From the NCBI RefSeq assembly GCF_020510565.1, contig NZ_CP075189.1, positions 4,082,501 through 4,146,500 on the forward strand: DNA of 64,000 bases. The letters run 5' to 3'. This document shows positions 9,495 through 60,259 of the stretch, in pieces; the stretch's first letter is position 1; each line of letters starts with the position of its first letter. Source of the DNA: Ferribacterium limneticum. Its GTDB lineage: Bacteria > Pseudomonadota > Gammaproteobacteria > Burkholderiales > Rhodocyclaceae. A model generated the notes under the pieces. It was not told where the DNA came from. It ran no database searches and saw nothing but the letters and a program-made list of their open reading frames with translations. The position numbers and the translations under genes were made by a program.

Positions 9495-9531
9495 TTTTGC
9501 GTTTTACGCAATAAATCCGGTTGACCGTAGG
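9495..9531 (-). repeat. Degenerate copy of the 37-bp dispersed repeat (reverse)
   Basis: Only the outer half is well kept (ATCCGGTTGACCGTAGG); the inner half is replaced by other AT-rich sequence. It lies between the hybrid kinase and ttcA, 43 bp before the ttcA start. Assigned by comparison with the full copies at 22.6, 30.5 and 37.1 kb. Confidence 0.55.
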
Positions 9532-9574
9532 AATCACGCTACATGGTCAGTCCACCGCCCTTTTTCCTTGCCCC

Positions 9575-10438
9575 ATGACCCAATCGAACAACCTGCAAAA
9601 GCTGCGCAAATATCTGGAAGGCCGTACCGGCAAAGCGATCATCGACTACAACATGATCGAGGATGGCGATACGGTGCTCGTCTGTGTTTCCGGGGGCAAG
9701 GATTCCTACACGCTGCTCGCCATGCTGATGGCGCTGCAAAAGCGCGCGCCGGTCAAATTCCGCCTGGTCGCCATGAATCTCGATCAGAAGCAGCCCGGCT
9801 TTCCCGCTGACATCCTGCCCCGCTATTTCGAATCGATCGGTATCGAGCATCGGATTGTTGAAGCCGACACCTATTCAGTCGTCAAGGAAAAGATTCCCGA
9901 AGGAAAAACCACCTGCTCGCTCTGTTCGCGACTCCGCCGTGGCGTCATCTACCGAACCGCCAAGGAACTGGGCGCCAACAAGATTGCCCTCGGCCATCAT
10001 CGCGATGACATGGTCCATACGCTCTTTCTCAACATGCTCTTCGGCGGCAAGCTCAAGGCCATGCCGCCGAAACTCGTCACCGACGACAAGGCGCATGTCG
10101 TCATCCGGCCCCTGGCCTATTGCGCCGAGTCCGATATCGCCAAATTCGCCCGCGGCATGGAATTTCCGATCATCCCCTGTAACCTGTGCGGCTCGCAGGA
10201 CAACCTGCAGCGCCAGAAGATCCGGGAAATGATGCAGGATTGGGACAAGCGCTATCCAGGTCGTACCGAATCCGTATTTACCGCCATGCAAAATGTCGTT
10301 CCCTCCCACCTGGCTGATGGCGACCTATTTGATTTTCGCGGACTGACGCTGGACACCCCGGTCGCGGAGGGCGATATTGCATTTGACCTCCCGGAAATGC
10401 CGATCAGCGGGACCATCCCGATAAGCCTTTCGGCATAA
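9575..10438 (+). CDS. ttcA: tRNA 2-thiocytidine(32) synthetase TtcA
   Basis: Thiolates cytidine 32 in tRNA using an iron-sulfur cluster. It is 287 residues long. The PP-loop ATP pyrophosphatase motif [11 protein letters not shown] is at about residue 41, and two CxxC pairs ([11 protein letters not shown] and PCNLCGSQ) provide the cluster and sulfur-transfer cysteines. [26 protein letters not shown] is typical of the family. The chosen ATG gives [17 protein letters not shown]; the longer upstream reading runs into the degenerate repeat copy. Confidence 0.95.
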
Positions 10439-10500
10439 TGCAGAAGCAGCGCGATCAACATATAATGAGCAGTCGTTTATTCATGGACTCCAGGTAGACA

Positions 10501-11403
10501 ATGAGTGCCACGCAACGAAAACTGATTGTGATGTTCGCCGATGTCTCCGGCAGTACCGCGCTTTTCGAGCGTCTTGGAGACAAAGAGGCAATGCATGCAG
10601 TTGAACGTTGCCTCAAGCGCATGAAGCGCTCCATCGATGGCTACAAGGGCAAGACTATCCAGGTGGTCGGTGACGAGTTGCTTGGTGCGTTTGAAACTGC
10701 GGAAGATGCCTGCCAGGCGGCCATTGACATGCAGCAGCGGATTGCCGACCTGCCGCCCGTTTCTGGCCTGAAATTGACTATCCGCATTGGCTTGCACTGC
10801 GGCGAAGTGTTGGACGATGGCAAAAAACTCACCGGATCGGCTGTTTCAACGGCCGCCCGTATTGCGGGGATTGCCCGACGCGACCAGATTTTGTGCAGTT
10901 CACTTCTCGTCGAGGCCCTGGCCGAACCAAGCTTCATTTCTGCCAATCCCGTCCCCGAACTAGGTAGCGTTCCAGAAGACGGCGAAGCTCTGGCACTTTT
11001 CCAGATCAACTGGCCGAACTATCAGGGTGCCACCGCGAATTCAGCGCACTCGGCTTTCGGCCCAAGCAGCGCCGTCCCCGTCGACCGACTTTGTGTTCGC
11101 CATCGCGGCAAGGCTTTTTTGCTTGACGACAAGACCCCGGTCCTGACCATCGGCCGTGATCTTGGCTGCAAACTGATCATCGATGATCGCAAAGCCTCCC
11201 GGCAACACGCACGGGTTGAAAGGCGGGGTGATGGCTTCTATCTGGTCGACACCAGCACAAATGGCTGCTTTGTCACGCTCTCAGGACGCCAGGAAGTCAT
11301 GGTCCGGCGCCATGAAATTCAACTCGAAAGTCGTGGCCAGATCAGTTTTGGCAATTCAGGCAACGATCCTTTGGCCGATATCGCCGAGTTCGAGCACCTG
11401 TAA
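10501..11403 (+). CDS. Class III nucleotidyl cyclase domain fused to an FHA domain
   Basis: A 300-residue soluble protein. The N-terminal cyclase homology domain (residues about 8-165) has the metal-binding start VMFADVSGSTALFERLGD and a second conserved stretch IGLHCGEVLDDG. The C-terminal FHA domain (about 195-295) shows LTIGRDLGCKLIIDDRKASRQHARVE and STNGCFV, which bind phosphothreonine. The combination suggests nucleotide signalling recruited by a phosphorylated partner. Substrate-specifying residues cannot be read confidently, so cAMP production is not assured. A TATAAT hexamer about 35-40 bp upstream could be its -10 box. Confidence 0.88.
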   Translation: MSATQRKLIVMFADVSGSTALFERLGDKEAMHAVERCLKRMKRSIDGYKGKTIQVVGDELLGAFETAEDACQAAIDMQQRIADLPPVSGLKLTIRIGLHCGEVLDDGKKLTGSAVSTAARIAGIARRDQILCSSLLVEALAEPSFISANPVPELGSVPEDGEALALFQINWPNYQGATANSAHSAFGPSSAVPVDRLCVRHRGKAFLLDDKTPVLTIGRDLGCKLIIDDRKASRQHARVERRGDGFYLVDTSTNGCFVTLSGRQEVMVRRHEIQLESRGQISFGNSGNDPLADIAEFEHL

Positions 11404-11408
11404 ACGAA

Positions 11409-11434
11409 AATCGGCCATCCGCAGATGGCCGATT
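11409..11434. terminator. Bidirectional terminator-like hairpin
   Basis: Perfect 11-bp stem AATCGGCCATC / GATGGCCGATT with a 4-base loop, between the convergent cyclase-FHA and PsiF genes. An A-run on the left acts as a U-run for the minus strand; the plus strand lacks a clear U-run. Confidence 0.7.
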
Positions 11435-11452
11435 GCTCCCTGAGCAAGTTGG

Positions 11453-11710
11453 TTACTTGGCGGCAGCGTCAGCAGTGCACTTCTTCATGAAGCTGTTCTT
11501 GGCAGCGCCAGCCAGTTTCTTTTCCTTGGCTGTGGCAGCACAAGCTTCGTTTTCAGGAGCGGCGCCGGCATCCTTGGTGCACTTCTTCATGAAGCTGTTC
11601 TTGGCGGCACCCGCCAGCTTTTTCTCGGCGGCCTTCGCGGCACAATCATCAGTGGCGTAGGCGGTCGAAGCAGCAAAAGCAACAATCAACAGACCGATCA
11701 ATTTCTTCAT
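11453..11710 (-). CDS. PsiF repeat-containing secreted protein
   Basis: An 85-residue protein with a signal peptide (MKKLIGLLIVAFAASTAYA) and two near-identical PsiF repeats, each ending KKLAGAAKNSFMKKC. E. coli PsiF is phosphate-starvation induced, but its function is unknown. The paired cysteines and basic repeats suit a small disulfide-bonded periplasmic protein. A GAGGGG ribosome-binding site lies upstream of the ATG. It is downstream of hprK with a 47 bp gap. Confidence 0.85.
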   Translation of the reverse strand: MKKLIGLLIVAFAASTAYATDDCAAKAAEKKLAGAAKNSFMKKCTKDAGAAPENEACAATAKEKKLAGAAKNSFMKKCTADAAAK

Positions 11711-11757
11711 TGGATGTCCCCTCAATAAGGTTGAAAAGCCGAAGCACTATCGGCCAT

Positions 11758-12693: not shown

Positions 12694-12702
12694 GAACTAA
12701 AC

Positions 12703-13149: not shown

Positions 13150-13160
13150 AGGGAAGGTGA

Positions 13161-13195
13161 GAAAAACAAAGGCCGCAACCGGTTACGGTGCGGCC
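13161..13195 (-). terminator. Intrinsic terminator/attenuator between hpf and ptsN
   Basis: Reading the minus strand, a GGCCGCA-type 7-bp stem with an inner CCGG stem is followed by TTTGTTTTTC. It begins about 10 bp after the hpf stop and ends just before ptsN, so it probably reduces read-through from rpoN-hpf into ptsN-hprK. Confidence 0.7.
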
Positions 13196-13205
13196 CGTTC
13201 AGCGC

Positions 13206-13532: not shown

Positions 13533-13547
13533 TTTTATCTCCTCTCT

Positions 13548-15020: not shown

Positions 15021-15047
15021 CGGTTGGGGTCGGTTTCTATTTTCCGG

Positions 15048-17425: not shown

Positions 17426-17433
17426 CATTTACC

Positions 17434-17670: not shown

Positions 17671-18320
17671 CGGCCTATTTGCCGCCGCCCGACAACGGTT
17701 TGGCCATCATTCATGTCGATAATGAAATCATCGTTGTCGACAAACCGGCCGGGCTGCTCTCCGTGCCGGGGCGCGGGGAGGGCATGGACGATTGCCTGGC
17801 ATCGCGTGTGCAGGCCAGGTTTCCGGATGCGCTGATTGCCCATCGCCTCGACATGTCGACCTCCGGCCTGCTCGTTCTGGCCCGCGGCGCCGAAATGCAC
17901 CGGCAGCTATCGCGTTTTTTCCGCGAGCGCCAGATCGACAAACGTTACGTCGCCGTCGTTCAAGGGCTGATGGCTGACGATGCCGGCGAGGTTGAGCTGC
18001 CGTTGATTTGTGACTGGCCGAACCGGCCGCGGCAAAAGGTCGATTTCGAGATCGGCAAGCCGTCGCTGACCCGTTTTCGCGTCGTCAGCCGCGATCCGGA
18101 CGCCAACACGACACGGGTCGAACTGGAACCGATCACCGGCCGCTCGCACCAGCTACGCGTCCATATGGCCTCGCTCGGCCACCCGATTCTCGGCGACGAT
18201 CTCTATGGTGGCGAGGCGACCGCGCTGGCGGATCGACTGCTCCTGCACGCCATGGATTTGGGCCTGTTTCACCCGTTGACCGCAGCAGCCATCCAATTTC
18301 ATTCCGACGCCCCGTTTTGA
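17667..18320 (+). CDS. RluA-family pseudouridine synthase
   Basis: A 217-residue single-domain enzyme, matching the size of E. coli RluA (23S rRNA U746 / tRNA U32), with no S4 domain. The catalytic motif is HRLDMSTSGLLVLARG (Asp near residue 55), preceded by IIVVDKPAGLLSVPGRG, and the end shows ELEPITGRSHQLRVHMASLGHPILGDDLYG. I choose TTG at the overlap with the upstream gene because the N-terminus then matches RluA; further upstream the frame is unconserved. Target position is inferred from family only. Confidence 0.85.
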   Translation: MTAYLPPPDNGLAIIHVDNEIIVVDKPAGLLSVPGRGEGMDDCLASRVQARFPDALIAHRLDMSTSGLLVLARGAEMHRQLSRFFRERQIDKRYVAVVQGLMADDAGEVELPLICDWPNRPRQKVDFEIGKPSLTRFRVVSRDPDANTTRVELEPITGRSHQLRVHMASLGHPILGDDLYGGEATALADRLLLHAMDLGLFHPLTAAAIQFHSDAPF

Positions 18321-18350: not shown

Positions 18351-18387
18351 TTTCGCGTTTTGAACCTTTTTTCCGGTTGACCGTACG
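18351..18387 (-). repeat. 37-bp dispersed repeat, diverged copy (reverse)
   Basis: Keeps TTTTTTCCGGTTGACCGTA; the inner half is diverged (GTTTTGAACC in place of TTTTTGGCC). It ends 3 bp before the ATG of the symporter gene, so it occupies that gene's leader. Confidence 0.7.
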
Positions 18388-18390
18388 ATC

Positions 18391-21127: not shown

Positions 21128-23778
21128 CCTGGCATGCCGACACCGTCGAAGCGGCCGCCCGGCGGCTGGGGGTCGATCACGCGGCCGGCCTGGATGATGG
21201 CGAAGCAGCCGCTCGACTCACCCGTCACGGCCCCAACCGCCTGACCGAACGCCCCGGCAAGCCGGCCTGGCGCCGCTTCGCCGAGCAGGTCATGCAACCG
21301 CTCGTGCTCGTGCTCATCGCGGCCGGCGCGATCACCGCCGCCCTCGGCGAAGTCGTGGACGCCAGCGTGATTTTCGGCGTCGTCGTGGTCAATGCCCTCA
21401 TCGGCTACTGGCAGGAGGCCAAGGCCGAAGGGGCCCTGGCCGCCCTGGCGCAAAGTGTGGCGACGCCGGTCACCGTCCGCCGCGGCGGGCATCGCCTGCA
21501 GCTCGACGCAACGCAACTGGTCCCCGGCGACATCGTCCTGCTCGCCGCCGGCGACCGCATTCCGGCCGACCTCCGACTGATCCAGCAACACGAGCTGCAT
21601 ACCGACGACTCGATGCTGACCGGCGAATCGCAGCCCGTCACCAAAAATGTCGCCACGCTGCACGCCGACACCATGCTCGCCGACCGCCTCAACATGGCCT
21701 ACGCCGGCACCACGGTGGTGGCCGGGCAGGGCAGCGGGCTGGTCATCGCCACCGGCGACGCCACCGAAACCGGGCGCATCGCCGGCCTGATCGCCGCCGC
21801 GCCCGACCTGGTCACGCCGCTGACGCGCAAGATGGCACGCTTTTCCAACTGGCTGCTGTGGGCCATCGGTGGGCTGGCCCTGCTCACCGTTGGCGTCGGG
21901 CTGGCCCGCGGCGGCTCGGCTTTCGACATGTTCATCGCCGCCGTGGCACTCGCCGTCGGCGCCATTCCGGAAGGTCTGCCGGCCGCCGTCACCGTCACGC
22001 TGGCTATCGGCGTTGCCCGCATGGCCAAACGGAGGGCCATCATCCGCCACCTGCCGGCCGTTGAAACGCTGGGCAGCACGACCGTCATCTGCTCCGACAA
22101 GACAGGCACGCTGACCGAAAATGCCATGACTGTCCGCGTCCTGTGGTGCGCCGGCGAGGGCTATGCCATCGGGGGCCACGGCTACAACCCGGAAGGGGCC
22201 ATCAGCCACGACGAAATGCCGGCCGACATCGACGGCGCGCTGCGCGAAGCCCTGATCGCCGGCGCGCTGTGCAACGACGCCTCGCTGCGCCACGAGCACG
22301 GCCAATGGAAGATCACCGGTGACCCGACCGAGGCCGCGCTGATCGTCGCCGCGCGCAAGGGCAAGCTGGACGAGCACACGCTGGGCGCGCTTTTTCCGCG
22401 GCGCGACGTCCTGCCTTTCGACGCCACCCGGCAATTCATGGCCACCGCCCACGAGGGCGACGGGCCGGGCGTTGTCTACGTCAAGGGTGCGCTCGAACGC
22501 CTGCTGCCGCTGTGCGTCGATCAGCTGTCGGCCAACGGCCAGCCGCTCCCTTTCGACCACGCTGCCATCGAGAAAATCGCCCATGCCTACGCCGAACAGG
22601 GCATGCGCGTCCTCCTGCTGGCCCGGCGAAATTTCAATTTTGGCCAAAATTTCCGGTTGACCGTGGAAGGCATCGAAAAGCTGACCCTGATCGGCCTTGT
22701 CGGCATGATCGACCCGCCCCGCAAGGCGGCCATCGGCGCCATCCGCAACTGTCATTCGGCCGGCGTGCGGGTCAAGATGATTACCGGCGACCACGCCGTC
22801 ACGGCGCTCGCCATCGCCCGCCAGATCGGCCTCAACGCCGAGCGGGCGCTGACCGGCCGCCAACTGGCCCTCCTCGACGACAGCGCGCTGGGCGAAGCCG
22901 CCCACAGCGTCGACGTCTTCGCCCGCGTCGAACCGGAACAAAAGCTACGCCTCGTCCGCGCCCTGCAGGCCCGCGGAGAAGTCGTCGCGATGACTGGCGA
23001 CGGCGTCAATGACGCGCCGGCGTTGAAACAGGCCGACATCGGCATCGCCATGGGCCTGGCCGGCACCGAAGTCGCCAAGGAGGCGGCGGCCATGGTCCTC
23101 ACCGACGACAACTTCGCCAGCATCGAGGCGGCCGTCGAGGAGGGCCGCGGCGTCTGGGACAACCTCGTCAAGTTCATCACGTGGACGCTGCCGACCAACT
23201 TCGGCGAAGGCCTCGTCATCGTCGCCGCCATTCTTTTCGGCAGCACGCTGCCCATCACCCCGCTGCAGATCCTCTGGATCAACATGACCACCGCCGTGCT
23301 CCTCGGCCTGCCGCTCGCCTTCGAACCGATCGAGCGCGGCATCATGCGCCGCCCGCCACGCCGGCAGGCCCAGCCGGTGCTCGACACCGCGCTGATCCGC
23401 CGCATCGTGCTCGTCTCTTTCCTGCTACTGGCCGGCGCCTTCGGCCTCTTCCTGCGCGAACTCGAACAGGGCCACAGCCTGGCCGAAGCGCGCACCGTCG
23501 CCGTCAATGTCTTCGTCGCCGTCGAGGCGGCCTACCTTTTCAATTGCCGCTCGCTGAGCGGCGGCTTCTGGCAGCAGGGCCTTTTTTCGAACCCGTGGAT
23601 CTGGGCCGGCATCGCCAGCATGGCCGCCCTGCAAGGCGCGCTGACCTATCTGCCGGCCATGAACGCCGCTTTCGGTACGGCACCCATCGGCCTCGCCGAA
23701 TGGGCAACGATCCTCGCCGTCGGGCTGGCCAGTGCACTGATCGTCGGGCTGGAAAAACGCGTGTCGCGCCGGGGCTGA
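21076..23778 (+). CDS. Cation-transporting P-type ATPase (P2 type)
   Basis: A 900-residue pump. N-terminal cation-ATPase domain (TRHGPNRLTERPGKPAWRRF), A-domain motif LTGESQPV, membrane motif PEGLPAAVTV, phosphorylation site SDKTGTLTENAM (Asp near 342), nucleotide domain KGALERLL, MTGDGVNDAPALKQADIGIAMG and a six-helix C-terminal domain. The PEGLP motif and overall length fit P2A/P2B pumps for calcium, with manganese or sodium also possible. In-frame sequence from the 37-bp repeat encodes residues about 519-531 (NFNFGQNFRLTVE) in a variable linker before the conserved GLVGMIDPPRKAA. Confidence 0.92.
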   Translation: MALPDPAFPLPDDAPDLAWHADTVEAAARRLGVDHAAGLDDGEAAARLTRHGPNRLTERPGKPAWRRFAEQVMQPLVLVLIAAGAITAALGEVVDASVIFGVVVVNALIGYWQEAKAEGALAALAQSVATPVTVRRGGHRLQLDATQLVPGDIVLLAAGDRIPADLRLIQQHELHTDDSMLTGESQPVTKNVATLHADTMLADRLNMAYAGTTVVAGQGSGLVIATGDATETGRIAGLIAAAPDLVTPLTRKMARFSNWLLWAIGGLALLTVGVGLARGGSAFDMFIAAVALAVGAIPEGLPAAVTVTLAIGVARMAKRRAIIRHLPAVETLGSTTVICSDKTGTLTENAMTVRVLWCAGEGYAIGGHGYNPEGAISHDEMPADIDGALREALIAGALCNDASLRHEHGQWKITGDPTEAALIVAARKGKLDEHTLGALFPRRDVLPFDATRQFMATAHEGDGPGVVYVKGALERLLPLCVDQLSANGQPLPFDHAAIEKIAHAYAEQGMRVLLLARRNFNFGQNFRLTVEGIEKLTLIGLVGMIDPPRKAAIGAIRNCHSAGVRVKMITGDHAVTALAIARQIGLNAERALTGRQLALLDDSALGEAAHSVDVFARVEPEQKLRLVRALQARGEVVAMTGDGVNDAPALKQADIGIAMGLAGTEVAKEAAAMVLTDDNFASIEAAVEEGRGVWDNLVKFITWTLPTNFGEGLVIVAAILFGSTLPITPLQILWINMTTAVLLGLPLAFEPIERGIMRRPPRRQAQPVLDTALIRRIVLVSFLLLAGAFGLFLRELEQGHSLAEARTVAVNVFVAVEAAYLFNCRSLSGGFWQQGLFSNPWIWAGIASMAALQGALTYLPAMNAAFGTAPIGLAEWATILAVGLASALIVGLEKRVSRRG
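22631..22667 (-). repeat. 37-bp dispersed repeat, full copy inside P-type ATPase gene (reverse)
   Basis: Complete unit: ATTTC, then TTTTGGCCAAAA, then TTTCCGGTTGACCGTGG. It adds no stop or frameshift and is read as NFNFGQNFRLTVE in the host protein, the same frame used by the copies at 55.6 and 60.2 kb. Confidence 0.9.
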
Positions 23779-24159: not shown

Positions 24160-24238
24160 CTAGATTTTCCCCGCATCAAAAGCCTGTCGCGCAGGCAGCG
24201 CGCCGGAGCATAGCAAATTCGCCGCAGCGGAAGGCAGG

Positions 24239-24275
24239 CGCACGGTCAACCGGAAAAATCGACCAAAATCGAAAT
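24239..24275 (+). repeat. 37-bp dispersed repeat (forward)
   Basis: CACGGTCAACCGGAAAAA, then GACCAAAATC and GAAAT. It lies between divergent genes and is followed after 10 bp by a parS-like palindrome. Confidence 0.9.
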
Positions 24276-24285: not shown

Positions 24286-24299
24286 GTTCCACGTGAAAC
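24286..24299. promoter_or_regulatory. parS-like ParB binding site
   Basis: GTTCCACGTGAAAC matches the 14-bp core of the bacterial chromosomal parS consensus TGTTNCACGTGAAACA exactly; only the outermost bases differ. It is intergenic, 39 bp before the ferredoxin gene. Confidence 0.8.
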
Positions 24300-25289: not shown

Positions 25290-26194
25290 AAGCCAGCCAA
25301 CTTCGCAAGACCTACGGCGACAGCGAAGTCGTCGCCGGGCTATCGTTCGCCGTCGAACCGGGCACCTGCTTCGGCCTGCTCGGCCCGAACGGCGCCGGCA
25401 AGACGACGACGCTGCGCCTCTGCCTCGGACTGACCGGGCCGGACAGCGGCCAAATCACGCTCAACGGCCACGTCATTCCCGACGACGCCCAGGCAGCGCG
25501 GGCGCGCATCGGCGTCGTGCCGCAATTCGACAACCTCGACCCCGATTTCACCTGCGCCGAAAACCTGCTCGTCTTCGGCCGCTACTTCGGGCTCAAGGAC
25601 GCCGACATCCGGGCCAAAATCCCGCAGCTGCTTGAATTCGCCGGCCTGTCGAGCAAGGCCGGCGCCCGTTTGTCGACGCTGTCCGGCGGCATGAAACGCC
25701 GGCTGACGCTGGCCCGGGCGATGGTCAACGACCCCGACATCATCTTCCTCGACGAGCCGACCACCGGCCTCGACCCGCAGGCCCGCCACCTGATCTGGGA
25801 ACGCCTCAAGCAACTCAAATCGGCCGGCAAGACGCTGATTCTGACCACCCATTTCATGGACGAGGCCGAACGCCTGTGCGACACGCTGATCGTCATCGAC
25901 CACGGCCGCAAGATCGCCGAAGGCAGCCCGCGCCAGCTCATCGCCGAGCAGATCGAACCGCAGGTCGTCGAGGTTTTCGACGAATCCCACGGTCAACTGG
26001 AAAATTTCGTCAAAAATCAAAAGCACCTCGCCGAGCGCGTTGAAACCAGCGGCGAAACCGCTTTCTTCTACTGCCGCGAGCCGCACGAACTACTGGCCCG
26101 ACTGGCCGACGCCGATGGCCTGCGCTACGTGCATCGCGCCTCCAACCTCGAAGACGTTTTCATCAAGCTGACCGGCCGCGAACTGCGCGACTGA
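25277..26194 (+). CDS. NodI-like ABC transporter ATP-binding protein
   Basis: A 305-residue ATPase with Walker [18 protein letters not shown]-loop [13 protein letters not shown], signature [15 protein letters not shown], Walker [14 protein letters not shown] and H-loop [12 protein letters not shown]. The long C-terminal extension fits the NodI/daunorubicin-resistance type, paired with ABC-2 permeases. The matching NodJ-like permease is 4.3 kb downstream on the same strand instead of adjacent. A diverged repeat copy encodes part of the C-terminal region ([13 protein letters not shown]). Confidence 0.9.
25986..26022 (+). repeat. 37-bp dispersed repeat, diverged copy inside ABC ATPase gene (forward)
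   Basis: CCCACGGTCAACTGGAAAA followed by GTCAAAAATCAAAA: one change in the outer half, several in the inner half. It has the same length and no frameshift, and is read in a different frame from the other genic copies. Confidence 0.6.
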
Positions 26195-30420: not shown

Positions 30421-30461
30421 TTCGCCATTTTGACAGCTTCGCCGAGGCCATCCGAAGTGAT

Positions 30462-30498
30462 CCCACGGTCAACCGGAAAAAATGGCAAAAATCGAAAT
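30462..30498 (+). repeat. 37-bp dispersed repeat, full copy (forward)
   Basis: CCCACGGTCAACCGGAAAAA, then TGGCAAAAATC and GAAAT. It is intergenic between divergent radical SAM and ABC permease genes. Confidence 0.92.
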
Positions 30499-31355: not shown

Positions 31356-31673
31356 ATGGAAACCCTGCTCGTCATCACCAACTGCCCGGACGAAGAAACC
31401 GCCAACGCCATCGCGCTCGCCGCGGTTGAAGAAAAACTGGCCGCCTGCGTGAACATCCTGCCGCGGGTCCAGTCGGTCTATCGCTGGCAGGGCAAGGTCG
31501 AATCGGCCTCCGAAATTCCGCTTTTTTTCAAGTCGACCGTAGCAAGCTACCCGGCGCTCGAAGCCAGAATCCGCGAACTCCATCCCTACGAGCTGCCCGA
31601 AATCATCGCCCTGCCGCTCAGCCACGGCTTCCCGGCCTACCTGAACTGGGTGGCAGCAGAAACGATCCAATGA
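31356..31673 (+). CDS. cutA: Divalent cation tolerance protein CutA
   Basis: A 105-residue trimeric cytosolic protein of the CutA1 family. Signatures: VITNCPDEETANAIA, LAACVNILPRVQSVYRWQGKVE and LHPYELPEIIALPLSHGFPAYLNWV. Linked genetically to copper tolerance in E. coli although its mechanism is unclear. Its TGA overlaps the dsbD start (ATGA), the same cutA-dsbD arrangement seen in enterobacteria. Confidence 0.95.
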   Translation: METLLVITNCPDEETANAIALAAVEEKLAACVNILPRVQSVYRWQGKVESASEIPLFFKSTVASYPALEARIRELHPYELPEIIALPLSHGFPAYLNWVAAETIQ

Positions 31674-36734: not shown

Positions 36735-38098
36735 ACATGGTTCCACTGCTCGCCCACGGCGACCTCGACGCCGTTTTTGCCTGGTCGGCCGACGGCCCGA
36801 TCAGCGTTGGCGACTACCTGGCCGATGCCCACTGGCTGGCCGAACAACTGCCGGCCACCGGCTATCTGCTCAACCTCTGCCACGACCGTTACCGCTTTGC
36901 CGTCGGCTTCGCGGCCGGCTTGCTGCGCGGCATGACCAGCCTGCAACCCTCGTCGCAATCAGCGGAAACCTTCCGCCGCCTGCAGACCGAGTACGCCGGG
37001 CTGGTTTGCCTGTGCGACGGTGCCGCCGATACGCTTGACCTGCCACGCCTTGATTTCCCGGCCGATTCTTCGTGCATTCCCACGGTCAACCGGAAAAAAG
37101 GGCCAAAAACGAAATCGGCCATCCCCGAGTTTCCCGCCGATCATCTTGCCGCCATTCTGTTCACCTCCGGTTCCACCGGCCTGCCGCAGGCCCAGCGCAA
37201 GACCTGGGGCAAACTCGTCGCCAACGGCCGGGCCGAAGCCGTCGCCCTCGGCCTCGACCGCCGGCCGCACGCCATCGTCGGCACCGTGCCGGTCCAGCAC
37301 AGCTACGGCTTCGAATCGACCTTCCTGCTCGCCCTGCACGGCGGCTGCGCCTTCTGGGCCGGCAAGCCGTTCTATCCGCAGGACATCGCCGGCGCACTGG
37401 CCGCCGTGCCGCAGCCGCGCCTGCTCGTCACCACGCCTTTCCACCTCTCGGCGCTGCTCTCGGCCGAAATCGAGCTGCCGCCCGTCGACCTGCTGCTCTC
37501 GGCCACCGCGCCGCTATCGACGACGCTGGCCGCTCAAGCTGAAGCTCACACCGGCGCGCCGATGCACGAAATCTACGGCTCGACCGAATCCGGCCAGCTG
37601 GCCAGCCGGCGCACCACAGCCGGCGCGGAGTGGACCCTGCTGCCCGGCGTCCGGCTCGAGCAGGACGGCGACGACACCATCGCCTGCGACGGTCACGTTG
37701 AAGGCCGCGTCACGCTCTCCGACCTCATCGAACTGCTGCCCGATCACCGCTTCCTGCTCCATGGCCGCCACGCCGATCTGGTCAACATCGCCGGCAAGCG
37801 CACCTCGCTGGCCTACCTCAACCACCAGCTCGGCGCCGTTCCCGGCGTCGTCGATGGCGCCTTCTTCCTGCCCGACGAGGAAGGCCCGGACGGCATCACG
37901 CGCCTCACCGCCTTCGTCGTCGCCCCCGGCCTAACTTCCCGCCAAGTCAGCGTCGAACTGCGCCAGCGCATTGACGCCATCTTCCTGCCCCGGCCGCTCG
38001 TCCTCGTCGACAAACTGCCGCGCAACAGTACCGGCAAATTGCCGCGCGGCGATCTGCAGGCGCTCTACGCCGAGAAAGTCAGCCATGGCGGACGCTGA
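36731..38098 (+). CDS. AMP-dependent acyl/aryl ligase
   Basis: A 455-residue adenylating enzyme. The P-loop A3 motif is ILFTSGSTGLPQ (about residue 138), followed by HSYGFESTFLLALHGG, IYGSTESGQLASR and LLHGRHADLVNIAGKR; the C-terminal Lys is in LPRNSTGKLPRGDL. In aryl polyene pathways such ligases activate an aromatic acid (here probably hydroxybenzoate) and load it on an ACP. A full 37-bp repeat lies in frame, encoding residues about 117-129 (TVNRKKGPKTKS) in the linker just before the A3 motif. Confidence 0.9.
   Translation: MNMVPLLAHGDLDAVFAWSADGPISVGDYLADAHWLAEQLPATGYLLNLCHDRYRFAVGFAAGLLRGMTSLQPSSQSAETFRRLQTEYAGLVCLCDGAADTLDLPRLDFPADSSCIPTVNRKKGPKTKSAIPEFPADHLAAILFTSGSTGLPQAQRKTWGKLVANGRAEAVALGLDRRPHAIVGTVPVQHSYGFESTFLLALHGGCAFWAGKPFYPQDIAGALAAVPQPRLLVTTPFHLSALLSAEIELPPVDLLLSATAPLSTTLAAQAEAHTGAPMHEIYGSTESGQLASRRTTAGAEWTLLPGVRLEQDGDDTIACDGHVEGRVTLSDLIELLPDHRFLLHGRHADLVNIAGKRTSLAYLNHQLGAVPGVVDGAFFLPDEEGPDGITRLTAFVVAPGLTSRQVSVELRQRIDAIFLPRPLVLVDKLPRNSTGKLPRGDLQALYAEKVSHGGR
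37079..37115 (+). repeat. 37-bp dispersed repeat, full copy inside AMP ligase gene (forward)
   Basis: CCCACGGTCAACCGGAAAAA, then GGGCCAAAAAC and GAAAT. It is read as PTVNRKKGPKTK within the ligase, with no frameshift. Confidence 0.93.
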
Positions 38099-39864: not shown

Positions 39865-42188
39865 GCGCGGCGGCCCGTGCTTTCCTGATCTGGCTGCTGG
39901 CCATGCTGGCCGGCGCCATCGTCGTCTGGAACAGCCATTTTTCGGCCGACATGTCCTTCTTCCTGCCGGGCCGGCCGAGCGCGGCGCAGCAGGTGCTGGT
40001 CGACCAGTTGAAGGAAGGTGTCGTCACCCGCCTGCTCATGGTCGCCATCGCAGGCGGCGATGCGGCACAGCGGGCGGCGGCATCGCGCCAGTTGCGCGGT
40101 CGACTGGAAAAATTGCCCGAATTTGTCGCCATCCAGAACGGCCAGGCCGGCAGCCTCGATGCCGACCGCGACTTCCTGTTCCGCCACCGCTACCTGCTCA
40201 GCCCGGCCGTCAAGCCCGAACGCTTCACCGTCGACGGCCTCCGGGCCAGCATCGCCAATAGTGTCGATCTGCTCGCCTCGCCGGCCGGCATGATGATCAA
40301 GCCCTTGTTGCCGCGCGACCCGACCGGCGAAATGATCGAACTGCTCTCCGGCCTCAACGCCGGCGCCCAGCCCAATACGCAGGAAGGCGTCTGGGCCTCG
40401 CGCGACGGCCAACGGGCCATGCTGCTGATCCAGAGCGCCGCCCTCGGCTCCGATACCGACGCCCAGGAACAGGCGATCGCCACCATCCGCAGCCAGTTTG
40501 CCGAAAGCGCCCAATACGCCGGCTTCAGCGACGCGCGGATCGTGATTTCCGGCCCAGGCGTCTTCGCCGTCACATCGCGCGAAACGATCAAGAGCGAAGT
40601 CAGCAAGCTGTCATCGATCAGCACGCTGGCCATCATTGCCGTACTGTTCTTCGTCTATCGCTCGGCCCGGCTGCTCAGCCTCGGCCTGCTGCCCGTGGTC
40701 AGCGGGGCGCTGGCCGGCATCGTCGCCGTCAGCCTGGCCTACGGCACGGTTTTCGGCATCACCGTCGGCTTCGGCTCGGCGCTGATCGGCGAGGCGGTCG
40801 ATTACTCGATTTATTATTTCGTCCAGTCCGGCCGGCTCGGCGCGGCCGAATGGCGGGCGCGCTTCTGGCCGACCATCCGTTTGGGCGTGCTGACCTCAGT
40901 TTGCGGCTTCGCCGCACTGCTCTTTTCCGGCTTCCCCGGCCTCGCCCAGCTCGGCCTCTATTCGCTGAGCGGCGTGCTGACCGCCGCGCTGGTCACCCGT
41001 TTCATCCTGCCGGCGCTGGCCGGCAACGATCATCCGGTCCGCGACCTGAGCCACCTCGCCCCGCCGCTCAAGCAGGGCATCCGGGTGTTGCAAGGCCTGC
41101 GCTGGCCAGTCATTCTGCTCACCGCCGCGGCGCTAACCGTCCTCGTCATCGACCGCCACCAGCTCTGGCACCCGAACCTGTCAGCCCTGAGCACGGTCAG
41201 CGCCGAAGACTCGGCCACCGACATGGCGCTGCGCGCCGACATCGGCGCCCCGGATTCACGCTACATGGCCGTTATCACCGCACCGGACCGCGAAGCCGCG
41301 CTGCAGGCAGCCGAACGGGCCGGGCAGCAGCTCGACGCGCTGGTGGCAAAGGGCATCATCGGCGGCTACGACAGCCCGGCCCGCTTCCTGCCCAGCCAGG
41401 CCACGCAGGCCGCCCGCCGGGCCAGTCTGCCAGCCAGCGACGAACTGGCGGCGCGTCTGCAATTGGCGCAGGCCGATTCCCCGCTCGCTGCCAACAAGCT
41501 CGCCCCCTTCCTCGACGAAGTCGCCAAGGCGAAAGAGCAGGGTGCCATCACCCGCGAAACGCTCAACGGCACGAGTCTGGCGCTCGCCGTCGACTCGCTG
41601 CTCATGCAACGGCCAAACGGCTGGAGCGTGCTGCTGCCGCTGCGCCCGCCAGCCGGCGTCAAGGGCGTGGACATCGAGCCGGTGCGCGCCAAACTGGCCG
41701 GCAGCGGCGCGCTGTTCATCGACATGAAGTTCGAATTCGACCGCCTCTACAACGATTATCTCGACGAGGCAACGCTGCTCTCGCTGGCCGGCTTCGCCGC
41801 CATCGTCGCGCTGCTCGCCGTCACGCTGCGCTCCCCCCGCCGGCTCGGCGCCGTCCTGCTGCCGCTGCTCCTCGCCGTCATCCTGGTCATCGCCGGGGTG
41901 CATCTGGCCGGCGAACAGCTGCACCTCATGCACCTGATCGGCATGCTGCTGATCGTCGCCGTCGGCTCAAATTACGCGCTGTTCTTCGACCGGGCCGGCA
42001 AGGAACACCGGCTCGATGCGCCGACGCTGGCCTCGATGGCCATCGCCAACCTGACCACCGCCATCGGCTTCGGCACGCTCGCCCTGTCCAGCGTGCCGGT
42101 CCTGCACGCTGTCGGCATTACGGTTGGCCCGGGCGCCGTGCTGGCCTTGTTACTGGCGGCCTGTTTTTCGGAGCGCGAAGGTGAATAG
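39861..42188 (+). CDS. MMPL/RND-family exporter
   Basis: A 775-residue protein with two repeats of one helix, a large periplasmic domain and five helices (first TM cluster about residues 245-400, second about 630-770). Segments: GFGSALIGEAVDYSIYYFVQSGR and LLIVAVGSNYALFFDRAGKE. This is the inner-membrane pump expected to flip or export the aryl polyene lipid. Twelve or so helices are predicted in all. Confidence 0.9.
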   Translation: MSAAARAFLIWLLAMLAGAIVVWNSHFSADMSFFLPGRPSAAQQVLVDQLKEGVVTRLLMVAIAGGDAAQRAAASRQLRGRLEKLPEFVAIQNGQAGSLDADRDFLFRHRYLLSPAVKPERFTVDGLRASIANSVDLLASPAGMMIKPLLPRDPTGEMIELLSGLNAGAQPNTQEGVWASRDGQRAMLLIQSAALGSDTDAQEQAIATIRSQFAESAQYAGFSDARIVISGPGVFAVTSRETIKSEVSKLSSISTLAIIAVLFFVYRSARLLSLGLLPVVSGALAGIVAVSLAYGTVFGITVGFGSALIGEAVDYSIYYFVQSGRLGAAEWRARFWPTIRLGVLTSVCGFAALLFSGFPGLAQLGLYSLSGVLTAALVTRFILPALAGNDHPVRDLSHLAPPLKQGIRVLQGLRWPVILLTAAALTVLVIDRHQLWHPNLSALSTVSAEDSATDMALRADIGAPDSRYMAVITAPDREAALQAAERAGQQLDALVAKGIIGGYDSPARFLPSQATQAARRASLPASDELAARLQLAQADSPLAANKLAPFLDEVAKAKEQGAITRETLNGTSLALAVDSLLMQRPNGWSVLLPLRPPAGVKGVDIEPVRAKLAGSGALFIDMKFEFDRLYNDYLDEATLLSLAGFAAIVALLAVTLRSPRRLGAVLLPLLLAVILVIAGVHLAGEQLHLMHLIGMLLIVAVGSNYALFFDRAGKEHRLDAPTLASMAIANLTTAIGFGTLALSSVPVLHAVGITVGPGAVLALLLAACFSEREGE

Positions 42189-42195
42189 CCCGCTT

Positions 42196-42232
42196 CCCAC
42201 GGTCAACCCGAAAAAACGGCCAAAAATGAAAT
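42196..42232 (+). repeat. 37-bp dispersed repeat, full copy (forward)
   Basis: CCCACGGTCAACCCGAAAAA, then CGGCCAAAAATGAAAT. It starts 7 bp after the MMPL stop and is followed after 5 bp by a parS site. Confidence 0.93.
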
Positions 42233-45609: not shown

Positions 45610-45615
45610 CCGACT

Positions 45616-45652
45616 GCCACGGTCAACCGGAAAAATTACCCAAAATCGAAAT
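45616..45652 (+). repeat. 37-bp dispersed repeat, full copy (forward)
   Basis: GCCACGGTCAACCGGAAAAA, then TACCCAAAATC and GAAAT. It fills the whole gap between the convergent lipoprotein and Dcu genes and ends on the Dcu stop codon. Confidence 0.92.
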
Positions 45653-47102: not shown

Positions 47103-47116
47103 CCAAAGCAAGACTT

Positions 47117-47153
47117 GCCACGGTCAACCCGAAAAATGGGCCAAAAATGAAAT
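47117..47153 (+). repeat. 37-bp dispersed repeat, full copy (forward)
   Basis: GCCACGGTCAACCCGAAAAA, then TGGGCCAAAAATGAAAT. It is intergenic, 6 bp from the end of the minus-strand hydrolase gene and about 140 bp upstream of the Dcu start. Confidence 0.93.
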
Positions 47154-50542: not shown

Positions 50543-50546
50543 GAAT

Positions 50547-50583
50547 CCCACGGTCAACCGGAAATAATGGCCAAAAAGGAAAT
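50547..50583 (+). repeat. 37-bp dispersed repeat, full copy (forward)
   Basis: CCCACGGTCAACCGGAAATA, then TGGCCAAAAAGGAAAT. It begins 5 bp after the dehydratase stop and ends 3 bp before the ketoreductase ATG, so its AAGGA is the likely ribosome-binding site of that gene. Confidence 0.93.
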
Positions 50584-53676: not shown

Positions 53677-53683
53677 GCTTTGT

Positions 53684-54832: not shown

Positions 54833-54841
54833 GGTCCGGGC

Positions 54842-55600: not shown

Positions 55601-55623
55601 GGTGAAAAGGGTTCGGACAGGGT

Positions 55624-56406
55624 TCAGGCTGCGATTGCTACGGTCGACCGGAAATTTTGGCCAAATTCGAAATGGAAATAGGCGTCGAGTTCGGCAGTAA
55701 AAGTCTGGATGTTGGCTGGCGGCGGAAAACGGCGGCCGAGGCGGACCCGGCAGGTGAGCGGCAGTTCGGGGCGACGGAAGAGTGGCCAGGCCTTGCCGAG
55801 ATACGGGGTAGAAAATTCGATGAGCAGGGTCTGGACATCGACCTTGCTGCGGCTAGCGATCAGGCCGACGCTCGGCGAGCTGGCGCCAAAGGGAAAATCG
55901 AGCGTGCGCGAGCCTTCTGGGAAAATGACCAGATGGGCGCCTTGTTGCAACTCGTCGCGCGCCCCGAGAATCACATCGAGCGCCGCATCATTGCGGATGT
56001 AGCGGGCCAGTCGGGCGGCGGCGCCGAACAGCAGGTTGTCCATGAGCGCCGCCTTCATGACGCAGACGGCGTTGGGCAGCCGGGAGACGATCATCACGGC
56101 ATCAAGGAGGGAAGGGTGGTTGGCGGCAACGATGAGCGGCCCCTGGTCGCGCAGGCGGTCGATCTCGGCCAGGTCGAAACGACAGGCGCAGAAGACAGTA
56201 AGAATGCGCAGATAAAGCCGGAAACCCCATGAAATCGTGGCCCGGCCGACCGTTTGGCCGAGACGCCGGGGCAGCAGGAAATCAAGGACCAGCGCGCAAG
56301 GCAGCCAGATCAGGCAAAGCACGGCCAGCGAACCCAGACCGACGACCATGGCCAGGTACTCGTAGGCCATCCACAGGGGATTGCCTGCGCGCGGACGATC
56401 AGTCAT
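55624..56406 (-). CDS. 1-acyl-glycerol-3-phosphate-type acyltransferase
   Basis: A 260-residue PlsC-like acyltransferase. A membrane anchor (YLAMVVGLGSLAVLCLIWLPCALVLDFLL, partial) precedes the motif AANHPSLLDAVM (NHxSxxD) and FPEGSRTLDF. The last 13-14 residues (HFEFGQNFRSTVAIAA) are encoded by a diverged copy of the 37-bp repeat, which reaches almost to the stop codon, so the native C-terminus may have been replaced. It overlaps the MipA gene by 8 bp. Confidence 0.88.
   Translation of the reverse strand: MTDRPRAGNPLWMAYEYLAMVVGLGSLAVLCLIWLPCALVLDFLLPRRLGQTVGRATISWGFRLYLRILTVFCACRFDLAEIDRLRDQGPLIVAANHPSLLDAVMIVSRLPNAVCVMKAALMDNLLFGAAARLARYIRNDAALDVILGARDELQQGAHLVIFPEGSRTLDFPFGASSPSVGLIASRSKVDVQTLLIEFSTPYLGKAWPLFRRPELPLTCRVRLGRRFPPPANIQTFTAELDAYFHFEFGQNFRSTVAIAA
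55637..55673 (+). repeat. 37-bp dispersed repeat at end of acyltransferase gene (forward)
   Basis: GCTACGGTCGACCGGAAATT, then TTGGCCAAATTCGAAAT. The first palindrome is perfect here (CGGTCGACCG). It encodes the host protein's last residues in the same frame as the copies in the P-type ATPase and lipoprotein. Confidence 0.9.
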
Positions 56407-57247: not shown

Positions 57248-58251
57248 CAAGCTTCCTCCAGCGAATGTGAGGCCATCGCCTCGATTTCCAGCAACAGATC
57301 ATGCCGGCAGATATCGGCCTGCATGTAGACAATTTCCGCCTGACCGACCAGCGGCGCCAAGGTTTCGCGGATGACCCGGAAATCGGTGGCCTGGCGCACA
57401 TAGACGCGGTAGGAAAGATCCGTCAGCGCGTACGGCCCGGTGCGGCACTGAAGGTTGGCCTCGGCGACGACCGCCGCGACGTTGGCCATGGCCTCGCGAC
57501 TCTGCCCGGCGACGTCGCCCGGAAAAATCGTCTCGTGACCAACGATGCTCGCCGTACCGGAAATGAACAGGATTTCCTGGCCTTGCGGATAAACCAGCGC
57601 GCCACGCGAAAAGGTCGGGCTGCGCGGGCCGTAATCGGCCGGGTAGTTGTAGGCGCTGACCTGCCGCGGGTTCTCGAGCGGCACGGCGGGCGTCGCGCCG
57701 GCCATGAAGGCGATGCTGAGCGGGCTGCCGGCCAGGCCGATGGCGCAGGCGGCCGGCACGTTGCCGGTAGCGCCGCGATGGCATTCGAGAAAGGCATCCT
57801 GACGACCGATGTTGAACTGGCGGTAACGCTCCAGACCGTCGGTTTCCAGATTGATCGCCGACAGGTAATTCCAGACTCGCCACAGATGCGGCACCTGCTC
57901 GATGTCGAGCAGCCGGAAGATGCGGCGGTAGGCTTCCTCGCTGGCCGCCTGCAGGGGCGAGCCCTTTGCCGAGGCGGCGAAATCGGCTTCGTCGAGTTCG
58001 ATGACGCCGTAGAGCAGACCATCCGTGCGCCGCCAGACGATGCCCTCGCAGTGCCCGGCGATGACGGCCTGATCGCTCAGCCAGGTTTCATGGATGGCTG
58101 CGCTGGTGGCGCCGAGCAGTGGGGCAAATACCCGTTGCACGGGCCAGACCGGCACGGCGCCGCTGGGCGGCTCGCCAACCAGGGCACCACCAAGTTCGCT
58201 GCCGGTTTCACGTGAAACAGCAGACGGCGAGGAAACGAACTGGAGCGCCAC
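57247..58251 (-). CDS. Chorismatase / hydroxybenzoate synthase (XanB2-like)
   Basis: A 334-residue protein with a RidA-like C-terminal fold. Signatures match the XanB2/FkbO/Hyg5 chorismatases: LWRVWNYLSAINLETDGLER, FNIGRQDAFLECH, SAYNYPADYGPRSP and GTASIVGHETIFPGD. These convert chorismate to 3- and/or 4-hydroxybenzoate plus pyruvate; 3-hydroxybenzoate is the xanthomonadin starter. So the aromatic head here probably comes from chorismate rather than tyrosine via an ammonia lyase, and no ammonia-lyase gene is present in the window. The start is a GTG overlapping the upstream stop. A parS palindrome lies inside codons 12-16. Confidence 0.9.
   Translation of the reverse strand: MALQFVSSPSAVSRETGSELGGALVGEPPSGAVPVWPVQRVFAPLLGATSAAIHETWLSDQAVIAGHCEGIVWRRTDGLLYGVIELDEADFAASAKGSPLQAASEEAYRRIFRLLDIEQVPHLWRVWNYLSAINLETDGLERYRQFNIGRQDAFLECHRGATGNVPAACAIGLAGSPLSIAFMAGATPAVPLENPRQVSAYNYPADYGPRSPTFSRGALVYPQGQEILFISGTASIVGHETIFPGDVAGQSREAMANVAAVVAEANLQCRTGPYALTDLSYRVYVRQATDFRVIRETLAPLVGQAEIVYMQADICRHDLLLEIEAMASHSLEEA
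58205..58218. promoter_or_regulatory. parS-like ParB binding site inside coding sequence
   Basis: GTTTCACGTGAAAC, a perfect palindrome followed by A, so 15 of 16 positions fit the parS consensus. It lies in the chorismatase gene, where it is translated as VSRET near residue 12. Confidence 0.82.
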
Positions 58252-59585
58252 TATGCGTTGTAAACGACCGCGTCGTCGACCTTGCGAATGTTGAACTTAC
58301 GCCGCTTCCAGCCCATGTAGGCCTTCCTCGGTTGCATGATGCTGGCGATGTAATAAAGCATCTTGAAAGCAAAGATCGACGACCAAATCGGCGTCTTGCC
58401 GAAGATATCGCCGGCCAGCATCGACAGTACGGCCTCCTTGGCGCGGAAGAGGTTGCGCGGTCCCATGAAGAATTCGCGCATGACCGGGTTGGTCACGCGG
58501 TAAATGAACCACGAGAATTCCTTCGGGCCGTGTTTCATGAGCTTGTCGAAACGCTTGAGTGCGGCCGGCGCCTTGGCCGGGTTGCGCAGGCAGGTGTCGA
58601 TGGCCTCGGCAGCGATGACGCCACTGTTCATGGCGAGCAGCACGCCGGATGAAAACACCGGGTCGATGAAGGCATAGGCGTCACCGAGCATGACGTAGTT
58701 ATTGCCGTGATTGCGCTCGGAAACGTAGGAAAAGTTGCCGGTCGCCTCGATCTCGTTGATCAGCTTGGCATCCTTTAGACGCTCGGTCAGTTTCGGGCAC
58801 TGGGCGAAGCCGTCACGCAGGAATTGCTCAAGGCTGCGCTCGCCTTTGGTTTTCATGTAGTACGGCCAGGTCACCATACCGATGCTGGTGATGTCGTTCT
58901 GCATCGGGATGAACCAGAACCAGCCGTGCTCGAACCAGAAAATGGTGATGTTGCCTTCGGCGACGCCTTCGTGGCGCTTGCAGCCGGTGAAATGGCCGTA
59001 GATCGCCGAGCTGTTGTGCTTCGGGTTGCGGTGCTTGATCTGGAAGCGGTTGGCCAGGAAGGTGTCGCGGCCGGAAGCATCGACGACAAAGCGGGCCTGC
59101 CATTCGGTTTCGCGGCCGTCGTCGTGGATGGCGCGGACGGTAGCGGTGTTGTCGGGCAGGAATTCGACGGCCTTGGCCTTGCAGCCTTCATGCACTTCGA
59201 CGCCTTTTTTCGCGGCGTTGCGGATCAGGATGGTGTCGAACTGATCGCGCTTGACCTGGTAGGCGTGAGGCATGGACTTGTCCCAGGCTTCGGCGAAGAC
59301 AAAGACCGACGACATTTCATGGTTCGGCGACACAAACTCGGCTCCCGGCTTGTGCATGCCGATGGCCTTGACTTCTTCGGCGATGCCCATGCGCTCGAAG
59401 AGCGGCAGATTGGCCGGCAACAAGGATTCGCCGATATGAAAACGCGGGTGGTGCGCCTTTTCCAGCACCACCACTTTGTAGCCCTTTTCCGCCAGCATCG
59501 GCGCCACGGTACAACCGGCTGGCCCGCCGCCGATGACCAGCACATCGCACTGCTTGCGCTCCACTCCCTGCACTTGCTCCATCAT
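58251..59585 (-). CDS. Flavin-dependent halogenase-like oxidoreductase
   Basis: A 444-residue FAD-binding protein. The Rossmann start is CDVLVIGGGPAGCTVAPML, then the GESLLPANLPLFERMG stretch typical of halogenases and related hydroxylases. HGWFWFIPMQND fits the flavin-halogenase motif GWxWxIP. Xanthomonadins are brominated, so a halogenase here would fit; a ring-hydroxylase or reductase role remains possible. A Shine-Dalgarno AAGGG precedes the ATG. It is the first gene of the minus-strand arm and shares one base with the chorismatase GTG. Confidence 0.88.
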   Translation of the reverse strand: MMEQVQGVERKQCDVLVIGGGPAGCTVAPMLAEKGYKVVVLEKAHHPRFHIGESLLPANLPLFERMGIAEEVKAIGMHKPGAEFVSPNHEMSSVFVFAEAWDKSMPHAYQVKRDQFDTILIRNAAKKGVEVHEGCKAKAVEFLPDNTATVRAIHDDGRETEWQARFVVDASGRDTFLANRFQIKHRNPKHNSSAIYGHFTGCKRHEGVAEGNITIFWFEHGWFWFIPMQNDITSIGMVTWPYYMKTKGERSLEQFLRDGFAQCPKLTERLKDAKLINEIEATGNFSYVSERNHGNNYVMLGDAYAFIDPVFSSGVLLAMNSGVIAAEAIDTCLRNPAKAPAALKRFDKLMKHGPKEFSWFIYRVTNPVMREFFMGPRNLFRAKEAVLSMLAGDIFGKTPIWSSIFAFKMLYYIASIMQPRKAYMGWKRRKFNIRKVDDAVVYNA

Positions 59586-59620
59586 GGAAACCCTTAGTTT
59601 TTCTCTGTGGCGGCGATGAG

Positions 59621-60259
59621 TTATTTGCCTTTGTAGGTCATGTAGCCCACTGTTTCGGAATGGCCGTCGATCTTGCTGACGCTTCCCTTGGCCCAATACA
59701 CGTAATAGGGGCCGAAGCTCGACCACCAGTAGCGCCAGTAGGGACCGTCCAGGCGCGGATTTTCGTTGGTTTGCGGATGGCCGACCGCCATGATGACCTG
59801 TTCCTTGGTCATGCCCTTCATGAGCTGGCCCTTGGTGATCGCCGCCCGCACGGCCGGTGAAAACTTCGCCATCTTGACCTTCGGGTCATCGAGGACGACC
59901 AGCTTGTTGACCCACTGTTCAGTCGTTTCCTCGGCCCGGCCATAATCGTGACCGAGGCGATACGGCTTGCCTTCGACATCGATGTTGGCGCGATAACCGT
60001 CGATCTTCAAAACCCTGATCGGCGTCCCGGCCGGGATGAACGGCAATTGGGCCAGATTCGAGTCGCTGATCCAGTCGCCCGAGTAATGCAGGTTGCAGCA
60101 GGCGTATCCGGTACGGACGGCCGTTTCCTTTTTCGCCTCGGCGGCCGGCTTGCCGTCTTCCGGCCTGGTTTCGTTGCCCTTGCAGGCGCCCAGCGTCACG
60201 ACAACACAGGCTGCCACGGTCAACCGGAAAAAACAGCTAAAAATGAAATTTTCCTTCAT
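59621..60259 (-). CDS. Lipoprotein with repeat-derived signal peptide
   Basis: A 212-residue lipoprotein. The signal peptide MKENFIFSCFFRLTVAACVV plus lipobox TLGAC (Cys near 26) is followed by a mature domain with GMTKEQVIMAVGHPQTNENPRLD (SmpA/BamE-like beta motif with GMTKxxVxxxxGxP) and WRYWWSSFGPYYVYWAKG. Codons 4 to about 16 come from a full copy of the 37-bp repeat. Function unknown; the BamE-like pattern suggests outer-membrane attachment. It lies just upstream of the halogenase-like gene, with a 35 bp gap. Confidence 0.8.
   Translation of the reverse strand: MKENFIFSCFFRLTVAACVVVTLGACKGNETRPEDGKPAAEAKKETAVRTGYACCNLHYSGDWISDSNLAQLPFIPAGTPIRVLKIDGYRANIDVEGKPYRLGHDYGRAEETTEQWVNKLVVLDDPKVKMAKFSPAVRAAITKGQLMKGMTKEQVIMAVGHPQTNENPRLDGPYWRYWWSSFGPYYVYWAKGSVSKIDGHSETVGYMTYKGK
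60213..60249 (+). repeat. 37-bp dispersed repeat encoding a signal peptide (forward)
   Basis: GCCACGGTCAACCGGAAAAA, then ACAGCTAAAAATGAAAT. It supplies NFIFSCFFRLTVA of the lipoprotein's export signal. The GGCC of the core is replaced by AGCT, still a palindrome. Confidence 0.9.

Follow-up and report, generated by a model that had tools for sequence, protein, structure and literature searches.

The 64-kb stretch of Ferribacterium limneticum DNA analysed here (contig NZ_CP075189.1, positions 4,082,501 to 4,146,500; hereafter the window) carries scattered copies of a 38-bp element that, judging from sequence comparison, probably serves as a DNA uptake sequence. It would represent a third, probably independent system of this kind, kept in the genome by biased uptake and recombination; according to PMC12616744, the Pasteurellaceae and Neisseriaceae are the only families in which self-DNA recognition through uptake sequences is known. 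The reading builds on what is observed in the genomes, namely the sequence of the element, its distribution (hundreds of copies on both strands), its origin by point substitution, its preference for one frame within genes, its dialects with a common inner core, the constraint on its A-tracts, and the comEA-, comEC- and dprA-family and pilin genes. Apart from the A-tract constraint, these are properties expected of uptake sequences, although competence machinery is also encoded in genomes devoid of the motif. An initial annotation of the window had dismissed an uptake signal on the ground that none was recognised, and the evidence now points to a new one.

Results

Copy number and anatomy of the element

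Compared genomes are designated by G-numbers, G000 being the genome that holds the window. All 13 copies reported in the initial annotation were located in the sequence, with the orientations given there. An 11-base core pattern with one mismatch allowed had 18 matches in the window against 1.99 expected, and a 38-column profile, iterated from 30 seed copies and applied with a cut-off score of 14 or more, retrieved 17 copies plus one at 13.3. Four of the copies (at 1113, 18250, 31507 and 40092) were additional to the earlier ones; they are weaker, and all lie within predicted genes. In 464 kb of G000 (positions 1-400000 plus the window) the profile found 108 copies and none in the same DNA reversed, which supports a real family of high copy number; 90 copies scored at least 35 and 18 between 14 and 35, and 13 further matches fell between 6 and 14, again with 0 in the control. 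This corresponds to a density of approximately 1 site per 4.3 kb and, by extrapolation, to about 950 copies in G000. Over the whole genome, a 34-base pattern had 211 matches and the 14-base pattern CGGTCAACCNGAAA had 430 (211 forward, 219 reverse), with 0 in both controls. A scan of the window against Rfam gave no match at the gathering score.

The conserved element reads T N C Y A CGGTC A AC C G G, AAAWWW, N S S C C, AAAWWT, GAAAT. The site has a direction: the core T-N-C-Y-(A/G)CGGTC(A/G)AC-CGG comes first, then two A-tracts and finally GAAAT. The T four bases ahead of ACGGTC is nearly invariant (96%), and for this reason the plus-strand element is taken to begin one base before the coordinate given earlier. 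The A/T tracts lie at an 11-bp spacing, and the flanks of 17 aligned copies are little conserved except for a slight A/T excess just 5' of the first T. The initial annotation had described two palindromes; the middle GGCC varies, and what is conserved is the core, the A-tracts and GAAAT. Its impression of a protein-binding site is supported, and the constant length it remarked on holds broadly, with a few variants of one nucleotide (e.g. G000:C1:74504).

The A-tracts were evaluated in the copies scoring at least 35 with pure A/T tracts, taking column shuffles as the null. The TpA step was present in the first tract of 9 of 74 copies, against 35 +/- 3 in the shuffles, and in the second tract of only 2, against 21 +/- 2.4. 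Furthermore, AAAAAA and AAATTT stand in for each other even at the same site of two related species (window 42195 compared with G002). The interchange of these two tracts, together with the avoidance of TpA, suggests that DNA shape is under selection. Rigidity and bend of A-tracts have been associated with uptake in Haemophilus (excerpt of PMC7811141).

Origin of the sites at orthologous positions

G000 was compared with 200 kb of G002, chosen without regard to sites, of which 170 kb could be aligned at 87.8% identity. All 28 intragenic G000 sites had the same length in G002; 25 of them were kept and 3 were lost at unchanged length. In the reverse comparison, 35 of 41 G002 sites were kept in G000 and 6 showed insertions or deletions (indels), and among coding orthologues of G000 and G024, 18 of 22 had the same length. 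In gatB, 12 of the 22 orthologues from the genus carry ACGGTCRAC at identical codon positions, with no indel within those 14 codons. When genomes were classed by the carrier census, the site was present in 12 of 15 carriers and absent from all 7 non-carriers (Fisher 0.0007, without phylogenetic correction; resolution of the gatB tree is poor, with 5 of 23 inner branches starred). In two of the remaining carriers, G002 and G014, gatB is one mismatch from a site. GatB of the seven non-carriers reads E-A-(T/V/M)-(V/L); in carriers the protein has E-S-T-V, Q-S-T-V or Q-L-T-V, with E-A-A-V in G005.

Orthologues thus appear to gain and lose the site mostly by point substitution at fixed length, and not by the copying of a fixed unit that had been suggested for the family. 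By this kind of gap test, Pasteurellaceae uptake signal sequences (USSs) were also shown not to be insertions (excerpt of PMC1626085). Identity between G000 and G002 was around 0.89 at 0.2-2 kb from sites versus 0.84 at 4-8 kb, a difference that is confounded by gene content and on which we do not rely.

Dialects among related species

Unbiased 10-mer counts indicate that related species use dialects of the element (CCACGGTCAAC, CACGGTCGAC, TTGCGGTCGAC), apparently switched by point changes at orthologous positions. The top 10-mer of G011 was CACGGTCGAC (53 in 200 kb, 1.6 expected), that of G020 was GTCGACCGCA (42, 1.9 expected), and in G015 and G010 the first rank went to TGCGGTCGAC or its reverse complement; the forms most frequent in G020 and G015 have GCGGTC as the inner core. 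Logos anchored on CGGTCRAC displayed the two A-tracts, spaced as in G000, for G011, G020 and G010; the signal was weaker for G015 and G024, and the G018 logo had no A-tracts. Core plus both tracts occurred 98 times in 400 kb of G000 and, in approximately 200 kb each, 47 times in G002, 26 in G015, 37 in G020, 26 in G024 and 52 in G011; G010 had 18 in 128 kb and G012 13 in 100 kb. In 200 kb of G016, G018 and G022 the counts were 1, 0 and 0, and reversed controls gave 0-5. When G000 sites were aligned to G024, 14 of 26 held a core there, against 0.9% of random 38-mers; at those 14 positions G000 always has A immediately 5' of the core, and G024 has G there in 10.

Distribution among genomes

Among 76 genomes of the genus, a dialect-blind pattern had at least 8 matches (8-253) in 44 and 0-6 in 32 (hand tally), with 0 in every control. 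Outside the genus, matches numbered 0-3 per genome (control 0-1) in a sample of 150 genomes from the family, spanning 68 genera, and at most 1 for the G000-type pattern (control 0-1) in a sample of 300 genomes from the order. By pattern count the motif is therefore confined to one genus, which we infer to be Azonexus/Dechloromonas. Among the matches listed (80 of at least 120 stretches), named records were assigned to Azonexus, Dechloromonas, metagenome-assembled genomes (MAGs) of Azonexaceae or Rhodocyclaceae, and MAGs labelled only by class or phylum. Among the papers listed by searches of the open-licence PMC literature, none was relevant to the motif or to uptake sequences in this group. 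A viral origin was rejected, as viral contigs held 0 exact matches to the G000-type pattern, and a search of plasmids and phages with site 42195-42232 (E up to 10) returned no record matching more than 80% of the query.

Placement relative to genes

Genes were predicted with a home-made hexamer gene caller, whose start positions are uncertain. Of the 108 sites in the 464 kb, 58 lie wholly within genes, 41 between genes and 9 over a gene edge. The intragenic sites show no strong orientation preference (33 on the strand of the gene, 25 opposite), and one frame is favoured on both strands, by 24 of 33 same-strand sites (binomial p 6e-6) and 17 of 25 opposite-strand sites (5e-4). Per base, sites are 8-9 times denser outside genes than inside, counting edge sites as outside. 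Convergent intergenic DNA is the densest class (16 sites in 3.0 kb, including 4 that overlap a gene edge), and divergent intergenic DNA the poorest (6 sites in 11.7 kb). Close neighbours are scarce, with 8 intervals below 1 kb against 22.1 +/- 3.8 simulated, and sites become denser as GC content rises (Spearman 0.63, 46 bins).

The longest site-free gap in positions 1-400000 spans 39.9 kb (G000:C1:338151-378042). It contains rpoB and rpoC, which fits strong purifying selection, and its interpretation as a foreign island was rejected on the same ground. The replichore strand bias of KOPS (FtsK-orienting polar sequences) or Chi type is not seen in the whole-genome counts given above; a hand count of the matches listed for the first 1.15 Mb from dnaA gave 36 forward and 27 reverse sites. 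As a separate observation, close inverted site pairs occur in L093 (CTSoil_121 MAG), 532-737, and in G467:C1:1510854-1510892. Pairs of uptake sequences in close inverted arrangement have been described as terminators in the known systems.

Competence genes and an insertion in comEC

G000 has an 833-aa ComEC open frame without stops, and it encodes a ComEA-family protein (scoring over the family cut-off), DprA and a ComP_DUS-family pilin. In G002, comEC is split near codon 256-258 by approximately 33.7 kb (G002:C33, about 109608-143311), and the first long frame past the junction encodes a 598-aa serine recombinase. The 30.7 kb of this insertion that were scanned hold 0 sites, against 7.8 expected (P 0.0004), and the adjoining comEC piece carries one. 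In G018 (C8, about 1085724), only ComEC residues 256-466 matched in the 20 kb examined, starting at the same codon; in G019 and G008, comEC lies in two pieces on different contigs, with the G019 break at a similar point. These last two cases may be assembly breaks, and an integrative element may use comEC as its attachment site in this genus.

Copies of the element in the window

The 17 copies, with their profile scores, are as follows.

1113..1150, plus strand: weaker uptake-sequence-like site, intragenic (41.5)
9495..9532, minus strand: intergenic site (39.9)
18250..18287, minus strand: degenerate site, intragenic (22.8)
18351..18388, minus strand: intergenic site (37.8)
22631..22668, minus strand: near-consensus site within a P-type ATPase gene (61.6), identical in G002
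24238..24275, plus strand: intergenic site (47.8)
25985..26022, plus strand: site within an ABC-transporter ATPase gene (52.1), kept in G002
30461..30498, plus strand: intergenic site with divergent genes either side (60.6)
31507..31544, minus strand: weaker site, intragenic (32.2)
37078..37115, plus strand: near-consensus site within an AMP-binding enzyme gene (61.0), kept in G002
40092..40129, plus strand: degenerate site, intragenic (26.6); the G002 counterpart scores higher (33.7)
42195..42232, plus strand: near-consensus site, intergenic (61.1)
45615..45652, plus strand: site flanked by convergent genes and reaching the edge of one of them (59.8)
47116..47153, plus strand: intergenic site (60.4)
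50546..50583, plus strand: intergenic site (58.8)
55636..55673, plus strand: site in the 3' end of an acyltransferase gene (55.5)
60212..60249, plus strand: intergenic site (58.9)

The window also contains three palindromes GTTTCACGTGAAAC, which we take to be parS-like, at 24286-24299, 42238-42251 and 58205-58218 (one has a mismatch and the others are exact, against 0.01 expected), and two of the three are within 20 bp of an uptake-like site. The region around 2000-17000 has a lower GC content and a single weak site, and is possibly acquired DNA.

Discussion

The steps that we infer from these observations are uptake, a receptor, bending of the DNA and drive. The type IV pilus uptake machinery would carry a surface receptor that binds the (A/G)CGGTC(A/G)AC core, while the phased, mostly TpA-free A-tracts would form a rigid bend helping the DNA to kink into the secretin. 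DNA with a good site would then enter the cell and recombine into the chromosome more often, so that site-improving mutations would spread by transformation, in intergenic DNA and wherever the protein tolerates the change; such molecular drive has been proposed for uptake sequences (excerpt of PMC1939737). A shift in receptor specificity would be followed by conversion of the sites through point changes, giving rise to species dialects. Uptake-biased transformation with drive would account for the presence of sites on both strands, their tolerance-limited spread in genes, their absence around rpoB and rpoC, the site-free insertion, the parallel change of dialect and the shape of the A-tracts.

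Several findings weigh against this interpretation. The density is below the 1 per kb given for Haemophilus and Neisseria in the sources excerpted, and the overall coefficient of variation of the intervals is around 1, which means that spacing is not even overall. Of 16 intergenic G000 sites, 10 were kept in G002 and 6 fell in indel-bearing alignments, 4 of these 6 still showing the site shifted by one base. G005, a carrier by count, has no site in gatB. ComEC does not follow the distribution of the motif, being intact in several motif-free genomes (e.g. G013, G016, G022) and interrupted in the carrier G002. Carriers and non-carriers alike have ComP_DUS-family pilins and ComEA-family matches, and no receptor is therefore singled out. 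The search for a co-varying protein thus gave no association for ComEC or, in 16 genomes of the genus, for the presence of ComP_DUS pilins. Most competent bacteria take up DNA without sequence specificity, and the genomes that have ComEC, ComEA and ComP but not the motif could be competent in this manner. In addition, none of the papers listed by searches of the open-licence PMC literature described an uptake or competence experiment for this genus.

Among known systems, the closest resemblance is to the Pasteurellaceae USS, which has, in the excerpts cited, a GCGGTC core and two phased A-tracts followed by TTTG(C)AAAT, an architecture similar to that of the Azonexus element. The Apl-type USS consists of ACAAGCGGTC, an A-then-T segment and AAAATTTTGCAAAT (PMC1626085). 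It shares with our element the inner core (A/G)CGGTC, A-then-T tracts approximately one turn apart and TTTGAAAT, its third segment AAAATTTTGCAAAT corresponding to AAAWTTGAAAT; both occur in hundreds of copies on both strands, enter genes by substitution and have dialects. However, the Azonexus host belongs to another class and family, the Betaproteobacteria; the first tract of our element follows CGGT after an interval of seven bases (mostly CAACCGG), whereas the first AT segment of the Apl type is just 3' of the core (PMC1626085); and the Azonexus element is longer (38 bp) and sparser (one per 4.3 kb or so). The Hin-type USS (AAGTGCGGT; PMC1626085, PMC7811141) likewise has a GCGGT core and two A-tracts, but differs in core prefix, spacing and density, which is near 1 per kb. 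The 9-bp core of a Pasteurellaceae USS proper, AAGTGCGGT or ACAAGCGGT, is not found, only (A/G)CGGTC being shared. The Azonexus element thus appears to work like a USS and is not a Pasteurellaceae USS. The DNA uptake sequence (DUS) of the Neisseriaceae (ATGCCGTCTGAA and dialects, with ComP as receptor) is comparable in being restricted to a family, with species dialects of few bases, no general orientation bias and a partly intragenic location, but it lacks A-tracts, has an unrelated core and reaches only about 13 nt (excerpt of PMC3630211).

We read the likeness to the Pasteurellaceae USS as convergent, unless a receptor shows otherwise. That both signals are read by related minor-pilin receptors, through deep homology or transfer, is unlikely in our judgement, although it would explain the GCGGTC, the two A-tracts and the TTTG(C)AAAT that they have in common.

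Other functions were considered besides uptake. A genus-specific nucleoid or chromosome-organising protein binding bent DNA, of the SMC-loader or macrodomain type, would be consistent with the phased, mostly TpA-free A-tracts, the genome-wide spread, the few close neighbours and the constant length. We hold this to be improbable, given the strand balance and mixed orientation, the amino-acid changes that accompany the site in the conserved enzyme GatB, a change of dialect that affects the whole genome and recurs in parallel in 10 of 14 cores at orthologous positions, and the 32 of 76 congeners with 0-6 matches. A transcription terminator or mRNA 3'-end element, suggested by the enrichment in convergent over divergent intergenic DNA, is a very poor candidate: more than half of the sites are intragenic, in both orientations, a lone site offers by inspection only a 3-bp stem, and a gene-end bias is also found for uptake sequences (excerpt of PMC2346458).

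Elements of the REP/BIME type (repetitive extragenic palindromes and bacterial interspersed mosaic elements) with their RAYT transposases are high-copy repeats, denser between genes, with a hairpin pair. The Azonexus element resembles them in the first two respects; it has no hairpin pair, no empty-site insertion was seen in the alignments, more than half of its copies are intragenic, and extragenic insertion of a palindromic unit is not what is found, so the earlier view that it is not of REP type is upheld. More generally, a mobile or amplified repeat (REP/RAYT, miniature inverted-repeat transposable element or copying of a fixed unit) would fit the high copy number and patchy occurrence among species. 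It is contradicted by the equal length of most coding orthologues, by the low conservation beyond the element in the 17 aligned copies, and by the 58 of 108 copies in open genes, where a 37-38-bp insertion would shift the frame; its probability is minimal. The same can be said of a regulatory site for a global transcription factor, which would agree with the higher density outside genes but not with the poverty of divergent (promoter) regions, the intragenic copies, the 38-bp length and the turnover of dialects.

If the uptake interpretation is true, a third family of uptake sequences would show that self-DNA recognition of this kind evolves repeatedly. A genus with carriers, non-carriers and several dialects would offer a setting for mapping the receptor, and the similarity to the USS bears on why A-tracts belong to such signals. 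Should related receptors after all read the Azonexus and Pasteurellaceae signals, there would be a self-DNA code extending across Beta- and Gammaproteobacteria, and the 44 carriers among 76 Azonexus genomes, with their dialects, would be a natural experiment revealing the receptor.

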